From contig JAHFHC010000031.1 of NCBI GenBank assembly GCA_023247085.1, forward strand, positions 1 to 8,592: DNA of 8,592 bases. The letters are read 5' to 3'. The position numbers were made by a program, and so were the translations under genes. Origin of the DNA: Microcaldota archaeon (GTDB lineage Archaea; Micrarchaeota; Micrarchaeia; Norongarragalinales; UBA8480). Below are positions 1 through 8,592 of the stretch, in pieces (the first letter of the stretch is position 1; the number at the start of each line of letters is the position of its first letter). The notes below the pieces were generated by a model. That model was not told the origin of the DNA, did not search any database, and saw only the letters and a list, made by a program, of their open reading frames with translations.

Positions 1-2400
1 AATTAAAGAAACTTCATCCAAAGACTCATTACTCTCAACCGCAACCACCATACTATCATTAACCAAAGTACTTCCCTGACTCGGCGTCGAACCAACAAAA
101 CCCACAGAAAGCAAAACAGGAACATGCGTAAAAGTAACGTTCCGCGCATTACTCAACGGAGTGTTATTGAAAATCGGAGTATACAAATAGTTACCTGGGC
201 GTATGCGATTAATTGTAACTGTAAACTGAGTCGAAGACAAACGTGTCATTGCCAAATTAGTCGAAACATTCTGCTCAAGACTCTGCCACAATAAATCTAC
301 ACCGGTAAGCGGCTTGTTCGAAACAACCGTAAGAGTCACATTGTTCTTCTCAGATAACGTTATTCCATCTGCAGGTGTAGGGTCAACAAAAACCGCAGCT
401 GCAGGCACAAAAGTAACTGAAACATTCCCCGAATCACTTAACTGAGTGTTATTGAAAACCGGAACATACGAATAGACACCAGGTAATATATCATTAATTG
501 ACAGCACAAACTGAGTAGGAGACAACTGTATCATATGCAAAGTAGTCAAAACATTACGCTCAACATCCGCCCACAACAACTCCACACTCGATAACGGCTT
601 ATTAGCACTGACTGCAATCGTTACATTATTTGACTCAGAAAGTGTTGCCCCGTTTTCGGGGGTAGGATCAACAAAAATTGCTGACGCCGGCACAAAAGAC
701 ACTGAAACATTTCTCGAATTAGCTAAAAGAGTACCATTGAAAACCGGAACAAAAGAATAAACGCCTACTGGCAAATCATTCAAAGTAAACGTAAACTCAG
801 TGGGAGAAACCGAAACCATAGGATACGCAACCGTGACGTTTCGCTCTAAATCCCACCAAACTAAATCCACACTCGACAACGGCTTATTCGCAGTAACAGC
901 AATAGTCGCGTTATTAGTTTCAGACAACATTGCGCCATCTGCAGGTGTAGGGTCAACAAATGCCGCAGAAGGCGGTAAGAAAGTCACTGTAGCGTTTCTC
1001 GAACCACTTAACTGAGTGTTATTGAAAACCGGAACAAAAGAATAAACGCCCACCGGCAAATCACTAACGGTTAAAGTAAATTGAGTCGAAGACAACTTCA
1101 CCATAGAATAAGTAAGCGTACTGTTTTGCTCAACATTACGCCATAATAAATCCACGTTTGCAAGCGGCTTATTAGCACTAACTGTAATCGTTACATTATT
1201 CGACTCAGACAACATTGCTCCATCCATGGGAGTAGGATCAACAAAAATTGCTGACGCCGGCACAAAAGACACTGAAACATTTCTCGAACCACTTAACGCA
1301 GCGCCATTAAAACTCGGAACGTATGAATAAACGCTCGGCAGCACATTGTTAATCGTCACTGTAAACTGAGTAGGGGAAACTCGCGCCATCAGATACATAA
1401 CCGTGGTGTTTTGTTCGAGGTTCTGCCAAACTAAATCCGCGCTTGGAAGTGGTTCGCTTGAAGCAATTGCAATGGTTACATTGTTTGTCTCAGACAACGT
1501 TACTCCATCTGCAGGCGTAGGGTCAACAAAAATCGCAGATGGAGCAGTTGGCGTTAGAACGGTTATTGTAACATTTCTTTGATTAGTTAGCAGGGTGTTG
1601 TTGAAAATCGGAGTGTACGAATAATTGCCCGGCGGAAGGTCGCTAATCGTAATCGTAAACAAAGTTGGATAAAGTTGTGTCATGAGATATCTAGTTAAGT
1701 TGTATTGGCCTATATTCCGCCATAGTATATCGACACCTGAAAGCGGCTTGTTCGAAACAATTGCAATGGTTACATTATTTGTCTCTGATAGCATTATCCC
1801 ATCTTTTGGCGTGGGATCAACAAAAACCGCAGCCGCAGGCACAAAAGAAACTGAAACGCTCCTCGAATCAATTAACTGAGTGCCATTGAAAACCGGAACG
1901 TACGAATAGGCACCTGGCGGCACGTTGCTAATTGTTGTTATAAATTGAGTTGAAGAAAGTCGCGTCATAGGGCGAGTAATCGTGTTGTTTTGCTCGAGGT
2001 TCTGCCAAACTAACTCAACATCAGAAAGCGCCTTGTTAGAAGTAATTGCAATGGTCACATTATTTGACTCAGACAAAACCACTCCATCCCCGGGAGTAGG
2101 GTCAACAAAAACCGCAACTGGCGATAAGATTACTGTAACGTTTCTCGGATTGGTTAAACTGGTGTTGTTGAAAATTGGAGTGTACGAATAATCACCTTGC
2201 GGAACGTCGTTAATTGTAAACGTAAAAAGAGTTGGAGAAACCTGCGTCATGGGATACGCAACCGTGGTGTTTTGTTCGAGATTCTGCCAAACTAAATCCG
2301 CGCTTGGAAGTGGTTCGCTTGAAGCAATTGCAATAGTTACATTATTCGCATCTAAAAGTATTGACCTATCATCAGGCGTAGGGTCAACAAAAACCGCGGA
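1..2400 (-). repeat. In-frame tandem repeat array, ~285-bp unit, eight full units plus a partial
   Basis: Successive copies of the FVDPTP-coding segment start at intervals of 282, 285, 294, 285, 285, 285, 285 and 291 bases, all multiples of three, so the array encodes modules of 94-98 residues. The 294-base interval comes from extra residues before the fourth copy (TVLTPTAPSA); the same type of linker (TVLIPYAPSA) precedes the first copy. Copies differ at many positions, but some blocks are nearly identical at the DNA level, which points to relatively recent internal duplication or gene conversion. The array continues past the left edge with a more divergent copy (GFVGSTPS). These are protein-domain repeats, not a CRISPR or transposon structure. 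Confidence 0.93.
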
Positions 2401-3801
2401 AGGAGCATATGGAATTAGAACCGTTATTGTATATTGTGGCGAAGTCGTCCTTTCTCCAGTGGAATTCACTACCCCTGAAACGAAAAAGGAAACTGAGCCA
2501 CTGAGTCCAGTTAAGTTTGCTTCATATGCTTTATTTGTGCCGTATACGCTATTTGTAATATTAGTCATCTGCACTCTGCCTATAGACGTTCCTTGTTGAA
2601 AGAAGAGCGTTGCTGATGATAATGCGAAGAATGATGAAACTCGGATGGTTACTTGTGGCCTCCCCGTAACCATATCACGATTTAATGGAGTTGGAGCAAC
2701 GAACTGTATAAGTGCAGGTGTTCGGTCTACAACGGATCTTAAAGTTTGTTGAGAAATGGTCTGTGCGCTCGAGTATTCTGTTGCAGGCATTGAACTAGTT
2801 GCGTTTACTATATAAGCGCCAGGCGCAAGTCCAAAAGCTTTAACCGAATGTGTTTTCTCTAGCGTGTAGTTTGAAATTTCAATATAATTGGATTCGTTGA
2901 AGAGTTCAGTTATCTTTACTACGCTCGGTGTGTTTAAGTTTGTATCCCAAGTTACTGCAATGTCATGAACTGGATAATTGACCATTTCAGCTTGCAAGTT
3001 AGACATAGATAATTGTAAATTACACCATTGAAAGCTGCTCTGTTTACTAGAATTAAAAACGGGGTTGAAATCTTCGATGAATTGCGATATACCTCTAGTG
3101 TCATTTCGCATACCGAATTTAGAACCTACGCTCAATACTTTGCCAGAATAATTGCGAGCTAGGACTTTTGCATACGGGTTTGGACAAGCTGCAGTGTTTA
3201 CAGTTGCGCCGTATCGCTCGCAAACATTTAGTACATTTCGGATTAGACTAGCATCCTTTGGCATTAGGCGTTCGCTTCCTGCTATTCCGGGTAAAAATTT
3301 GCTATCGAGTTTAAGCGGATTAAAACATTTAGTGCAAGCTATTGAGTTTGTTGCATTACAGTCTACTCGGTTTAATTGCGCTTGCGTGTATTGAACTACT
3401 TCAGTGTAAACTTGCGGTTCATCGCCTATAGGAGTTGGCGCAATTGGCGGTTTTGGAGTTTTTTCCTGCTTTGGTTTTGGAGTGTCAGTATCGTTAGTAT
3501 CGCTATTGCTTATTTGACTGGAAGCAGCAAATGTTTTCGCCGCAGTGTTTTTTTTGTCGGTTGCTGGAGTTTGGTCATTTACTGAATCGGTTTTAGTTGT
3601 GGCATTGGTTTTAGCTGTTGTAATTGCATTAGCCGCTTTATTCGGATTAATTTTGGTTGTTTCTTTTGCGGAATTAAAAGCGTTTTTGTTATAGGCAAAT
3701 CCATCACTATTGGGCGCTGCAAATAGTGGTACAGCTAAAGTGATGAGTAAAATTAAAACGAGTATTGTTAGGTGCTTGCCATGAGCAAAAGTCATGGACA
3801 T
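1..3801 (-). CDS. Giant secreted surface protein with tandem Ig-like repeats (3' end beyond window)
   Basis: The minus frame is open from the ATG at 3801 to the left edge, giving at least 1267 residues with no stop. An in-frame TAA at 3823-3825 excludes a longer start; a second ATG at 3795 is possible. Residues 1-29 look like a signal peptide: HGKH, a run of Leu/Ile, then LFA-AP. Residues 30-130 are a Thr/Lys/Asn-rich, then Lys-Pro-rich stalk. Residues 145-265 form a domain with six Cys (148, 156, 159, 194, 206, 260). A divergent FVAPTP module begins near 367. Modules with the FVDPTP signature follow, with its Asp (Gly in the last) at 473, 567, 662, 760, 855, 950, 1045, 1140 and 1237. Each carries a conserved NNVTI strand, an LxW motif, and a GxYSYxPxFNxT motif. 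N-X-S/T sequons are dense. By family knowledge this suits an archaeal S-layer, adhesin or stalk protein outside the cell; the specific role is unknown. The C-terminal anchor is not in view. The membrane-protein cluster lies 83 bases upstream on the same strand. Confidence 0.92.
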   Translation of the reverse strand, partial: MSMTFAHGKHLTILVLILLITLAVPLFAAPNSDGFAYNKNAFNSAKETTKINPNKAANAITTAKTNATTKTDSVNDQTPATDKKNTAAKTFAASSQISNSDTNDTDTPKPKQEKTPKPPIAPTPIGDEPQVYTEVVQYTQAQLNRVDCNATNSIACTKCFNPLKLDSKFLPGIAGSERLMPKDASLIRNVLNVCERYGATVNTAACPNPYAKVLARNYSGKVLSVGSKFGMRNDTRGISQFIEDFNPVFNSSKQSSFQWCNLQLSMSNLQAEMVNYPVHDIAVTWDTNLNTPSVVKITELFNESNYIEISNYTLEKTHSVKAFGLAPGAYIVNATSSMPATEYSSAQTISQQTLRSVVDRTPALIQFVAPTPLNRDMVTGRPQVTIRVSSFFALSSATLFFQQGTSIGRVQMTNITNSVYGTNKAYEANLTGLSGSVSFFVSGVVNSTGERTTSPQYTITVLIPYAPSAVFVDPTPDDRSILLDANNVTIAIASSEPLPSADLVWQNLEQNTTVAYPMTQVSPTLFTFTINDVPQGDYSYTPIFNNTSLTNPRNVTVILSPVAVFVDPTPGDGVVLSESNNVTIAITSNKALSDVELVWQNLEQNNTITRPMTRLSSTQFITTISNVPPGAYSYVPVFNGTQLIDSRSVSVSFVPAAAVFVDPTPKDGIMLSETNNVTIAIVSNKPLSGVDILWRNIGQYNLTRYLMTQLYPTLFTITISDLPPGNYSYTPIFNNTLLTNQRNVTITVLTPTAPSAIFVDPTPADGVTLSETNNVTIAIASSEPLPSADLVWQNLEQNTTVMYLMARVSPTQFTVTINNVLPSVYSYVPSFNGAALSGSRNVSVSFVPASAIFVDPTPMDGAMLSESNNVTITVSANKPLANVDLLWRNVEQNSTLTYSMVKLSSTQFTLTVSDLPVGVYSFVPVFNNTQLSGSRNATVTFLPPSAAFVDPTPADGAMLSETNNATIAVTANKPLSSVDLVWWDLERNVTVAYPMVSVSPTEFTFTLNDLPVGVYSFVPVFNGTLLANSRNVSVSFVPASAIFVDPTPENGATLSESNNVTIAVSANKPLSSVELLWADVERNVLTTLHMIQLSPTQFVLSINDILPGVYSYVPVFNNTQLSDSGNVSVTFVPAAAVFVDPTPADGITLSEKNNVTLTVVSNKPLTGVDLLWQSLEQNVSTNLAMTRLSSTQFTVTINRIRPGNYLYTPIFNNTPLSNARNVTFTHVPVLLSVGFVGSTPSQGSTLVNDSMVVAVESNESLDEVSLI

Positions 3802-3884: not shown

Positions 3885-4292
3885 TTATTTTCGCTTTTTC
3901 TTCTTTGTAGCACTGTGGATTTTACTTTGCTTAGATGAGCCAAGTGAACTTTCAAATTTTATTAGTTTTGCTATTTTTCTTGTTGCTATGAAGAATTCAC
4001 CTTCAAACATAAGTGCAAATGCAAGGAAGCCTACTAAAAAGCCAGTTACAAACCAGTTGAACATTCGTTCACTTGCTTGTAGTGCAGTGTTGCTTGTTGC
4101 TGATACAACTAAGCGTTGGGGCGAAGTCGGGTAATTGGTTTGCAAGTAGTTATTGGCGAACCACATGCCGATTATTATCAGTGCAATTACAAAGAGTCTC
4201 CATTTGATGTTGTAAAACTCGTCGCGTTGCTTGTTGGCAAATTTGTACAATTTTAAAGTGTCATATACTGAAGGCATTTTGTCTGGTTTCAT
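3885..4292 (-). CDS. Small two-helix membrane protein with a lysine-rich tail, unknown family
   Basis: This 135-residue protein is not one I recognise. Residues 1-30 are polar and charged, with Tyr10, Tyr16 and Tyr27. A hydrophobic helix spans about 31-51. A polar loop of about 52-78 contains YPTSP. A second helix spans about 79-105. The remainder is basic and ends in KKKKRK. By the positive-inside rule both termini should be cytoplasmic and the 52-78 loop outside. It starts at an ATG 11 bases after the stop of the 90-residue gene and is the last of four same-strand membrane genes; the surface-protein gene begins 83 bases further on. The basic tail could contact nucleic acid, membrane lipid or a cytoplasmic partner, but nothing in the sequence decides which. 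The gene call is strong from context and composition; the function is unknown. Confidence 0.85.
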   Translation of the reverse strand: MKPDKMPSVYDTLKLYKFANKQRDEFYNIKWRLFVIALIIIGMWFANNYLQTNYPTSPQRLVVSATSNTALQASERMFNWFVTGFLVGFLAFALMFEGEFFIATRKIAKLIKFESSLGSSKQSKIHSATKKKKRK

Positions 4293-4303
4293 CTCTCATT
4301 TTT

Positions 4304-4576
4304 TTATTTTTTCAAGTTGAATAATCTGAACAGCGAGGGGATTAATAACAATAACGTGGATGAAATGATTGCCCAGCCAAGGTAGCCAATTGCACCGATT
4401 ATGGGGTGTTCAATTACCAGGTAATAGATGAGTATGAATCCAACTGCCATTGACAACATTGGAGAAAATGGCAAGTGCTCTTTTGCCCAGTTGTAGTAGT
4501 AGAACGCTAGCCAAAGTAAAATTATCCACTTTATTATGTCAAGCCAGAAGCCAAATTGTTCAAATAATAGTAACAT
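4304..4576 (-). CDS. Very small three-helix membrane protein, unknown family
   Basis: This 90-residue protein is almost entirely hydrophobic, with likely helices at about 8-30, 38-54 and 58-80, a short Lys-Glu-His loop at 32-34 and an FNLKK end. It is rich in Trp and Tyr (FYYYNW at 25-30), typical of membrane-interface belts. Its ATG overlaps the stop of the upstream gene by one base (TGATG), which implies translational coupling. A GAGG at 4585-4588 on the minus strand, eight bases before the ATG, is a reasonable ribosome binding site, with GGAG just upstream of it. I cannot assign a family. Its size and position suggest a subunit of a membrane complex made with its neighbours rather than a stand-alone enzyme; that is inference. 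Confidence 0.85.
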   Translation of the reverse strand: MLLLFEQFGFWLDIIKWIILLWLAFYYYNWAKEHLPFSPMLSMAVGFILIYYLVIEHPIIGAIGYLGWAIISSTLLLLIPSLFRLFNLKK

Positions 4577-5046
4577 CAGTGTGGCCTCGCTCCTTCGGAT
4601 AATAGTTGATTTGCACGTTGTTCGTAATTAGCTTGTTTATGCTGGTGTGCTTTGAACTTTTCTATTTCGTCATTAGTTAATTGTTGTCCATCCATTAGTT
4701 TCTTTTGAATGAGAGTCATTTGTGCATCTTCAGCTTGTCCTTCGTGTAAACCAAACATGCCTAAAATCGGGAGTATACCCATATCTATGATGAATTGGAA
4801 GTGCCCGGACATTACTATGAAAACGAAGAATAGCAAGACAAGTACAGTTATGGAAATGGCGTGGAAGAGCATAAAGTAAGCAGCGATTACTGCCACTAGG
4901 CCAAGTATCACTTGTTGTTCTCTGAACACTACAAAGAGCCAGTAGAGTATGTAGGAAAAAACAAGTATTTTCACAACGAAACCGAGGTCAGCAATAGTAC
5001 TGAAAACGCTGAGCAAAGCAAGTAATGTAAATGGCGTAGTGAACAT
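4576..5046 (-). CDS. Multi-helix membrane protein with a charged C-terminal tail, unknown family
   Basis: This 156-residue protein has four or five hydrophobic helices within residues 5-100 (about 5-18, 22-40, 46-62, 64-80, 85-100), separated by very short loops such as FREQQ at 41-45. Residues 101-156 are polar and probably helical (HEGQAEDAQ, then an LTNDEIEKF segment) and end in EGARPH. The tail is probably a cytoplasmic interaction domain. The ATG lies three bases after the stop of the preceding gene. GGTGGTG at 5056-5062 on the minus strand, nine bases before it, is a plausible ribosome binding site that also encodes the Val run at the end of the upstream protein. I see no catalytic motif and no recognised family. 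It is the second gene of the four-gene membrane cluster. Confidence 0.87.
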   Translation of the reverse strand: MFTTPFTLLALLSVFSTIADLGFVVKILVFSYILYWLFVVFREQQVILGLVAVIAAYFMLFHAISITVLVLLFFVFIVMSGHFQFIIDMGILPILGMFGLHEGQAEDAQMTLIQKKLMDGQQLTNDEIEKFKAHQHKQANYEQRANQLLSEGARPH

Positions 5047-5049
5047 TTT

Positions 5050-5535
5050 TTATGACACCACCACAAAAGGCCTTGCGATTACTAATATAACTAGCAAGGC
5101 TAAGCCGAAACCAAAGAACTTGGCGGCATTGCTCCAGTAACTCCACATTGACCCTTTACCGCGATAGTCTAGTATTAAACCAGCTGCAAGCGTAGTTGCA
5201 GCAATGCAAGACAATACAAGTGGAATAATAAACAGTAAGTCAAAAAAAGTGAATAGGGTAGGCGCACCGGTCATTAATTTAGATGCAAAGTACCCGTATT
5301 TAGCCCCTTCTAATAGCATGGCGGCTATTCCACCTATTCCAAACAATAAGAGGGAAGCTATGAAGACGAAGAAAAATGCGTTGAATTCGCCAATGGTCTC
5401 GCCTGGAGAAAATGCATATGGGGGAGTTACTTTTACTGTTGTCAAGTGCTTTGCGTTTTGGTCAGAATTATAAAAGTAAACGGCGGCGAATGCAACTAGA
5501 AACGCGAGTAACGCAACTATAGTTAGGGACTTCAT
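5050..5535 (-). CDS. Four-helix membrane protein, first gene of the membrane cluster, unknown family
   Basis: This 161-residue protein has an N-terminal helix at 5-22, an external loop at 23-50 (TTVKVTPPYAFSPGETIGE), and further hydrophobic segments at about 51-75, 93-123 and 138-157. A conserved-looking LLEGAKYGYFASK motif lies at 74-86 and a short charged loop LDYRGKG at 122-128. The placement of Gly-rich helices and a Pro in the third segment vaguely recalls the SpoIIM-like membrane family, but the diagnostic Asn-Gly and Pro-His-Gly-Glu positions are not evident, so I do not make that assignment. It leads the four-gene cluster, with a candidate TATA box about 34 bases upstream, and is divergent from the isomerase gene. 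Function unknown. Confidence 0.87.
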   Translation of the reverse strand: MKSLTIVALLAFLVAFAAVYFYNSDQNAKHLTTVKVTPPYAFSPGETIGEFNAFFFVFIASLLLFGIGGIAAMLLEGAKYGYFASKLMTGAPTLFTFFDLLFIIPLVLSCIAATTLAAGLILDYRGKGSMWSYWSNAAKFFGFGLALLVILVIARPFVVVS

Positions 5536-5564: not shown

Positions 5565-5574
5565 TATTTAAAAC
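5565..5574 (-). promoter_or_regulatory. Candidate TATA box for the membrane-protein cluster
   Basis: The minus strand reads GTTTTAAATA centred about 34 bases before the ATG at 5535. This would place transcription start a few bases before the start codon, giving a very short leader. No ribosome binding site is seen in the intervening bases, which end GTGTGTAGAAC. It sits in the 106-base divergent region shared with the isomerase gene. Confidence 0.5.
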
Positions 5575-5641: not shown

Positions 5642-6622
5642 ATGCTTGACATATTACGGAATTTTCCAACTCAGTGCATTGAAGCAACGAAGTTAGGCCA
5701 CGGCATCAAAATAAACTGTGGCACAAGCGAAGCGGATAGCATAAATGAGGTTGTAATCGCCGGAGTTGGTGGAAGCGCTTTTGCGGGCGACGTTGTAGAA
5801 TGTCTTGCAGGTAAAGAAGTGCGCGTCCGGGTTAGCAAGGGTTATTCGCTTCCATTTGGAGTTGGAAAAAACTCACTGGTATTCGCAGTGTCTTATTCTG
5901 GAAACACTGAAGAAACTATTTCGGCATTTGAAGAAGCAGTGAAAAAGAATATAGGTAGAGTTATTGGGGTTGGAAGTGGGGGAAAACTAGAGGCGCTTTG
6001 TAAAAAACAAAACTTTGCATTCATCAAAGTGCCCGGTGGGTTGCCACCGCGCGGTTCAACGGGTTACTTGGCACTTTCAATACTCAATGTGCTAATTGAT
6101 AATCATATTATTTCTAGTAAATGGATTGAAAAAATCGGAGTTGAATTGAAAGATAGTGATGCTGAACAAACCGGAAAGGCAATTGGGGAACGAGTGTTCA
6201 AAAAAATTCCGTTAGTTTATTCTTCAGATGATCTTGAATGCATTTCTTATGGTTGGAAAATGAAATTCAATGAAAATAGTAAAATCCACGCTTTTGCAAA
6301 TAAATTTCCTGAACTTGATCACAATGAATTAGTGGGTTACACAAAGAAAAACGGCGATTTTCACACTATACTTGTACGCGACTCTGGCGATAACTTGCGC
6401 ATAAAAAAGCGTTTTGATATTACTCAGAAACTCATTGAAAGACTAGGCGGCGAGTGCACAGTTGTTAATACAAAGGGGAGTAATTTAGCCTCGCGGGTTT
6501 TCTACGCGTTGTACGTTGGCGACTGGGCTAGCTTTTATTTAGCTTTAAAGAACAAAGTTGAAGCACGGCCAGTGGAGATAATTGAAGAACTCAAAAAAGA
6601 AATGGAAAAAAATAAACTATAA
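5642..6622 (+). CDS. Bifunctional phosphoglucose/phosphomannose isomerase, archaeal SIS-domain type
   Basis: The family interconverts fructose 6-phosphate with glucose 6-phosphate and with mannose 6-phosphate in the cytoplasm, feeding glycolysis/gluconeogenesis and supplying mannose for glycan synthesis. At 326 residues the protein has the usual length of the archaeal family. The first SIS domain shows GVGGSAFAGD at 41-50 and the phosphate-binding SYSGNTEE at 84-91. PPRGSTGY at 135-142 matches the family's conserved Pro-Arg segment. NENSK at 210-214 and FPELDHNELVGY at 222-233 include Glu224 and His227, which correspond to the catalytic Glu/His pair known from crenarchaeal enzymes. The C-terminal ARPVEIIEELKK is also typical. 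The N-terminal LRNFPTQC fits the family's usual start. It is the only plus-strand gene, divergent from the membrane cluster and convergent with DUF424. Both activities are inferred; a single activity cannot be excluded. Confidence 0.95.
   Translation: MLDILRNFPTQCIEATKLGHGIKINCGTSEADSINEVVIAGVGGSAFAGDVVECLAGKEVRVRVSKGYSLPFGVGKNSLVFAVSYSGNTEETISAFEEAVKKNIGRVIGVGSGGKLEALCKKQNFAFIKVPGGLPPRGSTGYLALSILNVLIDNHIISSKWIEKIGVELKDSDAEQTGKAIGERVFKKIPLVYSSDDLECISYGWKMKFNENSKIHAFANKFPELDHNELVGYTKKNGDFHTILVRDSGDNLRIKKRFDITQKLIERLGGECTVVNTKGSNLASRVFYALYVGDWASFYLALKNKVEARPVEIIEELKKEMEKNKL
6593..6612 (-). terminator. Candidate U-tract terminator for the DUF424 cluster
   Basis: On the minus strand, runs of seven and six T (6606-6612 and 6593-6598) begin 19 bases after the DUF424 stop. 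Archaeal RNA polymerase commonly stops at such tracts without a hairpin. The tracts fall inside the Lys/Glu codons at the end of the convergent isomerase gene. Confidence 0.45.
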
Positions 6623-6630
6623 GTTATAAG

Positions 6631-6951
6631 CTATAAATTATAGATTTGTAAGTGTGGTACGCTTTTTATTTTTCTAGCTGCTGTAATTGAAATCGCTTGA
6701 GAAGCTGCTGCGAGTGTTTCTTTGCCAACTAGGTTAAATGAAGTATTTTCTTCGCCATGCAATTGTTTTATAATTTGAGTTGCTTGTTTTGCGCTTATTA
6801 ATTCGCCTTTGTAAAAGCTAGCGTAAGTTGATAAGTCAAGCACTGTTTTTTTGTCAACTAGTTTTTTTCCAATTAAATTTTCATCGCACATCGCTATGAT
6901 TACTGAAGTTTTTTCAGGATACTGCCTCGTGTTTTTCTTATAGTAAATCAT
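6631..6951 (-). CDS. DUF424 family protein (archaeal conserved protein)
   Basis: With the ATG at 6951 the protein has 106 residues. It carries the DUF424 pattern: an N-terminal strand (MIYYKK), then SVIIAMCDENLIGKKL with the conserved CDE-LG, a central ASFYKGE with the conserved FY-GE, SFNLVGKE with the conserved N-LVG-E, and a closing SVPHLQIY with the conserved VPH. DUF424 is a short soluble archaeal domain of unknown biochemical function. The frame also offers a GTG at 6963, but the ATG at 6951 overlaps the upstream stop as ATGA, the usual arrangement for coupled genes, and begins directly at the first domain strand, so I prefer it. It is the last gene of the right-hand minus-strand cluster, and its stop is eight bases from the stop of the isomerase. 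Confidence 0.88.
   Translation of the reverse strand: MIYYKKNTRQYPEKTSVIIAMCDENLIGKKLVDKKTVLDLSTYASFYKGELISAKQATQIIKQLHGEENTSFNLVGKETLAAASQAISITAARKIKSVPHLQIYNL
6662..6674 (+). terminator. Candidate U-tract terminator for the isomerase gene
   Basis: CTTTTTATTTTTC begins 40 bases after the isomerase stop and gives two runs of five T on the plus strand. It lies inside the end of the convergent DUF424 gene, mirroring the tract on the other strand. There is no strong hairpin. Confidence 0.4.
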
Positions 6952-7595
6952 CGTTTTGAGCACTTGAATGAATCTACTACGTGTTGTGCGATTATGATGT
7001 CATGGTTAAGCGCCTTTGGAATCCCAATTATGACAAGGGCAGCATAAGGGTTGTTTTCCTCGTCTTTGCAATTGTAAAACGCGTAGTGCATTGTTGCTGA
7101 TTCGCTTGAATAAGTTGATAGAAGTGGCGTGTCTAGCTCGGTTACAATTAACCTGACAGTTTCGCCTTGGCTATTGGTGAACATGCGGTTTGACACTACG
7201 CCAGTGCCTTGAACTGATTCTAGCAAGTTTTCGAACTCGTTTTCTGCAGTGGCGGAGTTGTCTGTTATTACTTCTATTGTTTCAGGCAAGGAGTCACCTG
7301 CGCCGGATAAAGCTCTGAATTCTGGGATTTCAATTGCTGGTTCTTGTGCGTAGAACCCAACCGGGTACTGTATTGCAAAACCAAATTTTTCATTTGTATA
7401 CGTGAGAAACTTGTAAGTGGAATTAATTGGAGTTTGTTCAAAGCGTGGTTGAACTGCATCGCTTACTTTTTGCGGCGTTAGTTGTTCCCAGCCATTGAAT
7501 GCAACTAGCCAAGACGCGATTAAAACAATTGCAGTTATGGTTACAACTATAGATAGCCCAGTTGACTTGCTTGGAGTATTTTTCATTTCAACCAT
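6948..7595 (-). CDS. Membrane-anchored extracellular protein with PsbP/Mog1-like signature
   Basis: With the ATG at 7595 the protein has 215 residues. A single hydrophobic helix lies at about 15-33 (LSIVVTITAIVLIASWLVAF), after a short polar N-terminus with Lys5 and Lys10 and with no lipobox Cys, so it is probably an uncleaved anchor with the rest outside. After a linker comes YTNEKFGFAIQYPVGF at 66-81, the strand-turn signature shared by PsbP-like and related Mog1-fold proteins. Later strands include ETVRLIVTEL at 145-154 and ALVIIGIP at 186-193, and a final helix follows. Cys176 and Cys212 could form a disulfide. The fold call rests on that short motif and is moderate. The frame extends to a TTG at 7610, and an ATG at 7586 is also possible; 7595 is chosen because a TATA-like stretch lies about 28 bases upstream. 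The stop overlaps the start of DUF424. Confidence 0.85.
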   Translation of the reverse strand: MVEMKNTPSKSTGLSIVVTITAIVLIASWLVAFNGWEQLTPQKVSDAVQPRFEQTPINSTYKFLTYTNEKFGFAIQYPVGFYAQEPAIEIPEFRALSGAGDSLPETIEVITDNSATAENEFENLLESVQGTGVVSNRMFTNSQGETVRLIVTELDTPLLSTYSSESATMHYAFYNCKDEENNPYAALVIIGIPKALNHDIIIAQHVVDSFKCSKR

Positions 7596-7616
7596 TTTAT
7601 TATTTTTCAACTCAAC

Positions 7617-7680: not shown

Positions 7681-8592
7681 TTATCCGCCGATTGCTACTG
7701 TGCGTTGTTGTGAAGTTGAAGTAGAAGCGGCTGATTCCAGCGCTTTGCCGTCGCCTTCGTCTTCAGGCTTACCTTTTAGGGACGCGATATCGCTGCTTGC
7801 TAGTGAAGCGAATTTAAAGTTGCCTTTTAATTCAGGTAACACTGGCGTCTCTGGTAACATGAGCGTGTCGAACAACATTTTTGGCGGAATGTTCGGATTG
7901 TTCATCACTACAAATAACTGGTATGAGTCTGAAGCTGAATCGACTTGGTTTTGGACAATGCACGCGTCAGTGTCTGAATTACAGAGGTTTGCCAAATAGA
8001 ACGATTTCGGTTCATTGCAATTGCCTGTTTCATCTTGCGTGCAGAACTTGTGAATTGAAGGTAATTTTGACGAACTAAATGGGTCTTCAATGTGATAAAC
8101 CACTAGTACATTCCTTGCATTTGGTGAAACAACCGCTTGGTTTGGCCGGACATCAACATCTAAACCAAGCTGGACACCGATTTGTAGGAGCGCGGGTAAA
8201 AGCGCTTTTCCAAATTGCTTGAACTTCGCTGCTCTGGACAAGGCAGTAACGGTCGCAGGTTTAACAGCCGCTTCTGCTTCAGCTACTGCATCTTTTGAAT
8301 GTTGTTCTATCATAGCCGCTAACTTATCATCTGCTAATTGTTGGATTTCTGCGGGGGTTGGCGCTGCCGGAGCTGCTGAACCAGAAGCAGTTGCAGCTGC
8401 TGTAGCTGCTGTATGCGCTGAGTTTAATTCTTGTGCAGCATCTGCTCGCAAACTGGCAACTACCTTAGCATCACTTTTAAGTTGGCTGTCGATAATTGGT
8501 TTTATGACTTTTTCGTAGTCCGCTGGTTTTGTAGTTAGTAACTCTTCGTAAAGCGCAAGGCGACTGCTGTCGTCTAATATGCCCCGGCTTCT
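7681..8592 (-). CDS. Ala-rich protein with four clustered cysteines, unknown (5' end beyond window)
   Basis: The minus frame is open from the right edge to the TAA at 7681, giving 303 residues without a convincing start, so the N-terminus lies outside the window. A TTG at 8451 is in frame but lies inside the continuous protein. Visible residues 1-50 are charged and helical (LYEELLTTKPADYEKVIKP). Residues 51-82 are Ala/Thr/Ser/Pro-rich low complexity. Residues 83-125 are probably a long helix or coiled coil. A globular part at about 130-262 includes a strand ARNVLVVYHIED (159-170) and Cys184, Cys192, Cys204 and Cys211 in a CX7C...CX6C arrangement with intervening Asp/Asn. The end is Ser/Thr-rich and closes AIGG. 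The cysteine pairs would suit disulfides in an extracellular protein or, less likely, a metal site. I do not recognise a family. It precedes the PsbP-like gene by 85 bases on the same strand. Confidence 0.85.
   Translation of the reverse strand, partial: RSRGILDDSSRLALYEELLTTKPADYEKVIKPIIDSQLKSDAKVVASLRADAAQELNSAHTAATAAATASGSAAPAAPTPAEIQQLADDKLAAMIEQHSKDAVAEAEAAVKPATVTALSRAAKFKQFGKALLPALLQIGVQLGLDVDVRPNQAVVSPNARNVLVVYHIEDPFSSSKLPSIHKFCTQDETGNCNEPKSFYLANLCNSDTDACIVQNQVDSASDSYQLFVVMNNPNIPPKMLFDTLMLPETPVLPELKGNFKFASLASSDIASLKGKPEDEGDGKALESAASTSTSQQRTVAIGG

Follow-up and report, generated by a model that had tools for sequence, protein, structure and literature searches.

We tentatively propose, with a little less than even confidence, that four adjacent genes (p1–p4) on a Micrarchaeota contig encode core membrane subunits of an order-specific complex built around a HerA/VirB4-fold pseudo-ATPase, which would probably serve giant surface proteins. 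Envelope construction and contact with other cells in DPANN archaea are, to our knowledge, largely unexplained, and an order-confined membrane array with matching giants and an apparently dead HerA/VirB4-fold protein offers a concrete gene set to test. The array may also be an instance in which a DNA-pump fold has been put to new use as a scaffold. Judged by sequence, the protein families and the array appear to be new and previously undescribed, and the array departs in one tested defining feature from the nearest known kind of system, Ced/type IV secretion (T4SS).

Four membrane protein genes and their families

The stretch of DNA analyzed here (the window) is an entire 8,592-bp contig, C11, of a 0.89-Mb, 92% complete Micrarchaeota genome from the order Ca. 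Norongarragalinales. Its relatives also bear the Micrarchaeota label, and among those that carry the cassette is LFW-144_1 (L076), the type of Ca. Norongarragalina meridionalis in the same order (PMC8561730). Members of the order are biosynthesis-rich to an unusual degree and possibly less dependent on hosts (PMC12892359). A term search of the paper naming the order most often turned up neither surface proteins nor secretion, and no description of a comparable array was found in the literature naming the order, of which mostly open-access papers were covered. The window contains the following features:

1..3801, minus strand: Ig-repeat surface protein, signal-like at its N terminus; the contig edge cuts off the 3' end
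3885..4292, minus strand: p4, 135 aa, two transmembrane segments (TM), a conserved EGE motif and a strongly basic C-terminal tail
4304..4576, minus strand: p3, 90 aa, Trp/Tyr-rich membrane protein with 2–3 TM; the most conserved
4576..5046, minus strand: p2, 156 aa; its model shows three membrane helices plus a helical hairpin in the cytoplasm
5050..5535, minus strand: p1, 161 aa, polytopic membrane protein with ~4 TM (hydropathy)
5565..5573, minus strand: TATA-box-like element TTTTAAATA, ~29 nt 5' of the p1 ATG (read by eye)
5642..6622, plus strand: divergent phospho-sugar isomerase (bact-PGI_C, E 3.9e-41), a housekeeping gene that parts g7 from p1 in this genus
6631..6963, minus strand: g7, DUF424 protein (PF04242, E 1.3e-11), which many relatives have close to p1
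6948..7610, minus strand: g8, order-specific protein (215–220 aa) with an N-terminal TM and an extracellular domain, directly after g9
7681..8592, minus strand: g9, giant surface protein anchored at its N terminus, of which the contig end leaves only the C-terminal 303 aa

The initial annotation had described p1–p4 as tightly packed genes for small hydrophobic proteins. We reproduced the four open reading frames exactly, with the same sizes and the same gaps of 3, -1 and 11 bases, and hydropathy agreed with the architecture it gave (TM, a Trp/Tyr-rich p3, a basic p4 tail). On the evidence of their sequences, p1–p4 are real coding genes under purifying selection rather than chance ORFs, because homologues occur across the order, dN/dS between the window genome and a congener (G002) is ~0.09, 0.09, 0.07 and 0.13 for p1, p2, p3 and p4, and third codon positions hold most of the changes in this comparison. 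The predicted model of p2 (pLDDT 81.5) has three TM and a helical cytoplasmic tail. The C-terminal tail of p4 carries a net charge of +4 to +11 over its last 20 residues in 23/23 homologues; as speculation, it could bind ribosomes or nucleic acid.

The TTTTAAATA element is the probable promoter of p1–p4 as a four-gene unit. The same annotation had seen no terminator between this unit and the downstream repeat protein, and we likewise found, by eye, no oligo-T tract on the coding strand 3' of p4. However, a TATA-like element, GGTTAAAAAAAG (about 3828–3817, also read by eye), sits immediately 5' of the Ig-repeat gene, and co-transcription of p4 with that gene is therefore left unsupported.

The claim that these genes are undescribed has stood up, as profile, sequence and fold searches yielded no lasting family. 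Neither Pfam, NCBIfam nor PHROGs held a family for p1–p4 of the window that stands, and PHROGs returned no viral family. When all p1–p4 homologues were scanned singly, matches were weak and inconsistent, with the exception of one p2 homologue (L041), which scored 31 against DUF5392 (PF17370; cut-off 25). Nine other p2 homologues tested singly gave no match, two p2 members in total matched at E<=1, and the hit probably stems from sequence composition (TM together with a charged helix). Profiles of p1, p2, p4 and the array protein c6 found no credible relative among PDB sequences, and the predicted fold of p2 matched nothing in the PDB below E 4.9.

Several candidate identities were rejected. 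By eye, p1 seemed superficially similar to SpoIIM (PF01944), and one of 15 p1 members gave a weak match (E 0.14). Profile-profile comparison put the hhalign probability at only 0.4%, with the minor flaw that the SpoIIM set held a few wrong-frame ORFs; a PF01944 genome search recovered true SpoIIM genes separately (G000:C21 in the window genome) and reported no p1 copy. Weak or isolated, mostly sub-cut-off matches of p2 to BcsG, Halogen_Hydrol or GvpG, of p4 to Sulf_transp or PKD_channel and of p3 to TgpA_N were taken as hydrophobic or coiled-coil noise.

A longer array in one archaeal order

We compared 29 genomes of the order and ~266 others from the phylum. These are metagenome bins, many of them fragmented, so that absence from one bin is weak evidence, and gene starts in some relatives were picked by script. 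Both p2 and p3 were present in 23/29 order genomes, and every order genome lacking a p2/p3 match was <90% complete. Outside the order, a p2 profile search gave one marginal match and the p3 profile none in the ~266 other genomes searched in the phylum. A pattern scan for p3 across 84,980 bacterial and archaeal species, one genome per species, returned only 21 loci, all archaeal.

The genes stay together in relatives: p2-p3-p4 were contiguous and inseparable in 23/23 p2-encoding genomes spanning seven families, with nearly all gaps between -11 and +55 bp. This linkage is old, since protein identity to the window copy drops to ~25% among homologues. Of the 23 p2-bearing genomes, 15 had p1 at the locus (~1 kb off in one), and in the other eight no p1 was found there.

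Beyond these four genes, the relatives show a longer array, with the order g9, g8, g7, p1, p2, p3, p4, c5, c7, one or two c22, c36, c12, c9, c6, c11 and DNA polymerase B (PolB), in which c12 is variable and c9 and c11 lie on the opposite strand. Apart from c6, considered below, the additional genes seen in relatives encode:

c5: small membrane protein of 75–121 aa, no accepted family
c7: small, hairpin-like, hydrophobic membrane protein of ~95 aa, no accepted family
c22: small, hairpin-like, hydrophobic membrane protein, no accepted family
c36 and c12: small membrane proteins, no accepted family
c9 and c11: coiled-coil proteins

Where both genes are present, c7 lies <=12 kb from p2 in 17/21 genomes and c6 in 12/22, against ~2% for chance linkage within 12 kb by a simple estimate that assumes random positions in a 1-Mb genome. 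In the window genome itself, c22-c36-c9-c6-c11-PolB are on a separate contig (C12). None of the three genomes from this genus yielded a c7 gene; both the window contig and the G002 contig end inside the Ig-repeat gene, and assembly breaks at Ig repeats are a likely reason that c5 and c7 went unseen in the window genome. Profile comparison of p3 with c5 (hhalign probability 63%, E 7e-5) indicates that the two are probably paralogues. The profile signal between p2 and c5 was weak, and shared ancestry of p2-p3, p2-c7 and p3-c7 was unsupported.

A membrane complex had been suggested for p1–p4, and this idea is plausible given that they belong to the longer conserved array. Because p2-p3-p4 are contiguous and the wider array accompanies them, the parsimonious interpretation is a membrane complex, and the array products would then form one complex acting as a membrane machine.

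Three minor observations concern the array region. Next to PolB, c11 (L033 2241-2585 and homologues) has weak similarity to the archaellum accessory protein FlaC (E 0.02). One array-adjacent PolB (L044 15378-18899) has an apparent intein-like insertion at its YGD motif. At another locus (L043 7745-11104), c22 and c9 are separated by a tandem run of three paralogues, each 348–401 codons long and assigned to no family.

The HerA/VirB4-fold protein c6 and Ced-like machines

The four-gene view of the initial annotation was incomplete in that it overlooked c6, the HerA/VirB4-fold protein of the array. This cytoplasmic protein has ~440–600 residues, and its sequence profiles gave weak DUF87/HerA signals only, one profile-search score being inflated because the matched locus was already in the profile. 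The AlphaFold model of c6 (pLDDT 81, pTM 0.66) had S. solfataricus (Sso) HerA as its top Foldseek match (E 4.5e-10), and residues 170–489 gave VIA Z scores of 21.1 to S. solfataricus HerA and 19.7 to VirB4. Thus c6 shares its predicted fold with HerA/VirB4 ATPases (PF01935 and relatives), and its P-loop region resembles that of other Micrarchaeota proteins whose HerA domains are intact. It differs from HerA/VirB4 in its N-terminal sequence and in the P-loop itself: Walker A is degenerate in 10/10 aligned copies (e.g., GGSREQR for HerA GxxGxGK[ST]), and the window genome's own c6 reads VVVGGTRQQR at that position. From a HerA/VirB4 fold with a lost Walker A it follows that c6 is probably a pseudo-ATPase.

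The main rival to our proposal is a domesticated type IV secretion or Ced/Ted-like apparatus encoded by the array: it would transfer DNA or assemble a thin pilus, with the polytopic and two-helix proteins as channel and pilus and c6 as a VirB4/CedB-derived subunit. Ced pairs a single polytopic protein with small two-TM proteins and an ATPase of the VirB4/HerA type (PMC9905601). The array resembles the Ced/Ted systems of Thermoproteota (CedA, CedA1, CedA2, CedB) in encoding small and polytopic membrane proteins together with a VirB4/HerA-fold protein (c6, by model and linkage), c7 and c22 being small, hairpin-like and hydrophobic, and in fast sequence divergence between lineages (PMC9905601, PMC11868833). 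Missing sequence matches do not by themselves refute this reading, since Ced and Ted components themselves have no recognizable sequence similarity to one another (PMC9905601). However, the intact Walker A of these systems was absent from c6 in the ten aligned copies and in the window genome, so that c6 could not be the sole motor, and no intact VirB4-type ATPase was seen in the array. Neither a CedA/VirB6 nor a CedA1/VirB2 homologue was recognized: a VirB6/CedA channel has 6–7 TM, and p1 has ~4 by hydropathy, with no solved-structure match by sequence; profiles of c7, c22, c5 and p3 matched no PDB pilin chain at the sequence level; and p2 showed no such match by fold. The array also differs in having more small proteins, in being found in Norongarragalinales only and in being giant-linked in some families. 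We consider a Ced/Ted-like apparatus fairly unlikely.

Giant surface proteins and a possible role for the array

Complete relatives of g9 are 2,556–5,178 aa long and combine a short cytoplasmic stretch and a single TM with Ig/prealbumin-like domains; CarboxypepD_reg and Big_1 domains are present. A search with the g9 anchor found 2–6 giants per positive genome in 20 order genomes and none in phylum-sample genomes outside the order, so that the distributions of g9 giants and cassette nearly coincide. Very large surface proteins are also known from the reduced genomes of other DPANN archaea, such as the SPEARE proteins of nanohaloarchaea; by description, g9-type giants are set apart by their N-terminal anchoring, their CarboxypepD_reg/Big_1 domains and their order-specific anchor.

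The initial annotation had linked the four genes to the Ig-repeat protein downstream, and this link did not hold. The Ig-repeat gene adjoins the cassette in only two genomes of one genus, the window genome and a congener, and its N-terminal part was found, among 60 genomes searched, only in the same two, with two copies in the window genome (the second at G000:C3:496-1710, L169, with 67% identity). The broader notion of a surface-protein link survives in part, through a different giant. The g9-g8 pair lies upstream of the cassette in ~10/23 genomes from four families, and g8, which serves as a marker of g9, is <=12 kb from the cassette in 10/21 genomes with both. In families f3, f5 and f7, however, the pair is located away from the cassette; g8 follows a g9 giant even at sites remote from p1–p4.

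A giant-handling role is favored because giants and cassette share one order restriction and are adjacent in four families, and it stays uncertain because g9-g8 are apart from the cassette in f3, f5 and f7. That separation leaves the identity of the clients to distribution and partial linkage, and the restriction of two things to one order is a weak sign of common function. We infer, with this in mind, that the giants are clients of the complex. In the mechanism we propose, the complex would probably include, besides p1–p4, c5, c7, c22, c36, c12, the coiled-coil proteins c9 and c11 and cytoplasmic c6, which, with its degenerate P-loop, would act as a scaffold and not a motor. The small proteins would build a membrane platform. 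Facing the cytoplasm, c6 (or ribosomes) may dock to the p2 helical tail and the p4 basic tail; at the outer face, the platform may receive or organize the order's giants, which have one N-terminal cytoplasmic and TM anchor in common. It is conceivable, if unlikely in this full form, that the complex descends from a HerA/VirB4 pump whose dead motor became a scaffold and that, with about nine unrecognized small membrane subunits, it inserts, anchors or patterns giant N-anchored fibers. If true, one DPANN lineage would have an order-specific apparatus for display or cell contact, with fibers of up to ~5,000 residues.

A membrane-organizing or envelope-stress complex, in which PspC/LiaF/holin-like proteins sit on a pseudo-ATPase scaffold with no surface-display or DNA role, is distinctly improbable. 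It would account for the sub-threshold matches of c5 to LiaF-TM (E 0.006), of c12 to Phage_holin_4_2 and of one p3 member to NfeD_membrane, but these all fall under curated cut-offs and are spread over unrelated families, as expected of short hydrophobic sequences, and the linkage to g9-g8 would be left unexplained. That order-specific hypothetical genes lie together merely by chance gene order, with no common complex, is very improbable: c6, g8 and g9 are scattered in f3, f5 and f7 and the neighbors PolB and DUF424 resemble housekeeping genes, but p2-p3-p4 stay together in every p2-encoding genome across seven families, c7 is near in most genomes, and both hold at identities down to ~25%.

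Two further observations concern very large genes. One locus (L118 1348-18598) carries two tandem giant anchored surface genes of 2,948 and 2,784 codons, with g8 after the first. Elsewhere, frames of 3,271–12,373 codons contain HerA-like P-loop regions (L103 at G015:C12, match 135445-135678; L108; L109; L025). The L025 frame has an intact ATPase motif, GATGSGKT, after a TM segment that itself follows an extracellular-looking region, and may be read as a fusion between a HerA domain and a giant surface protein.
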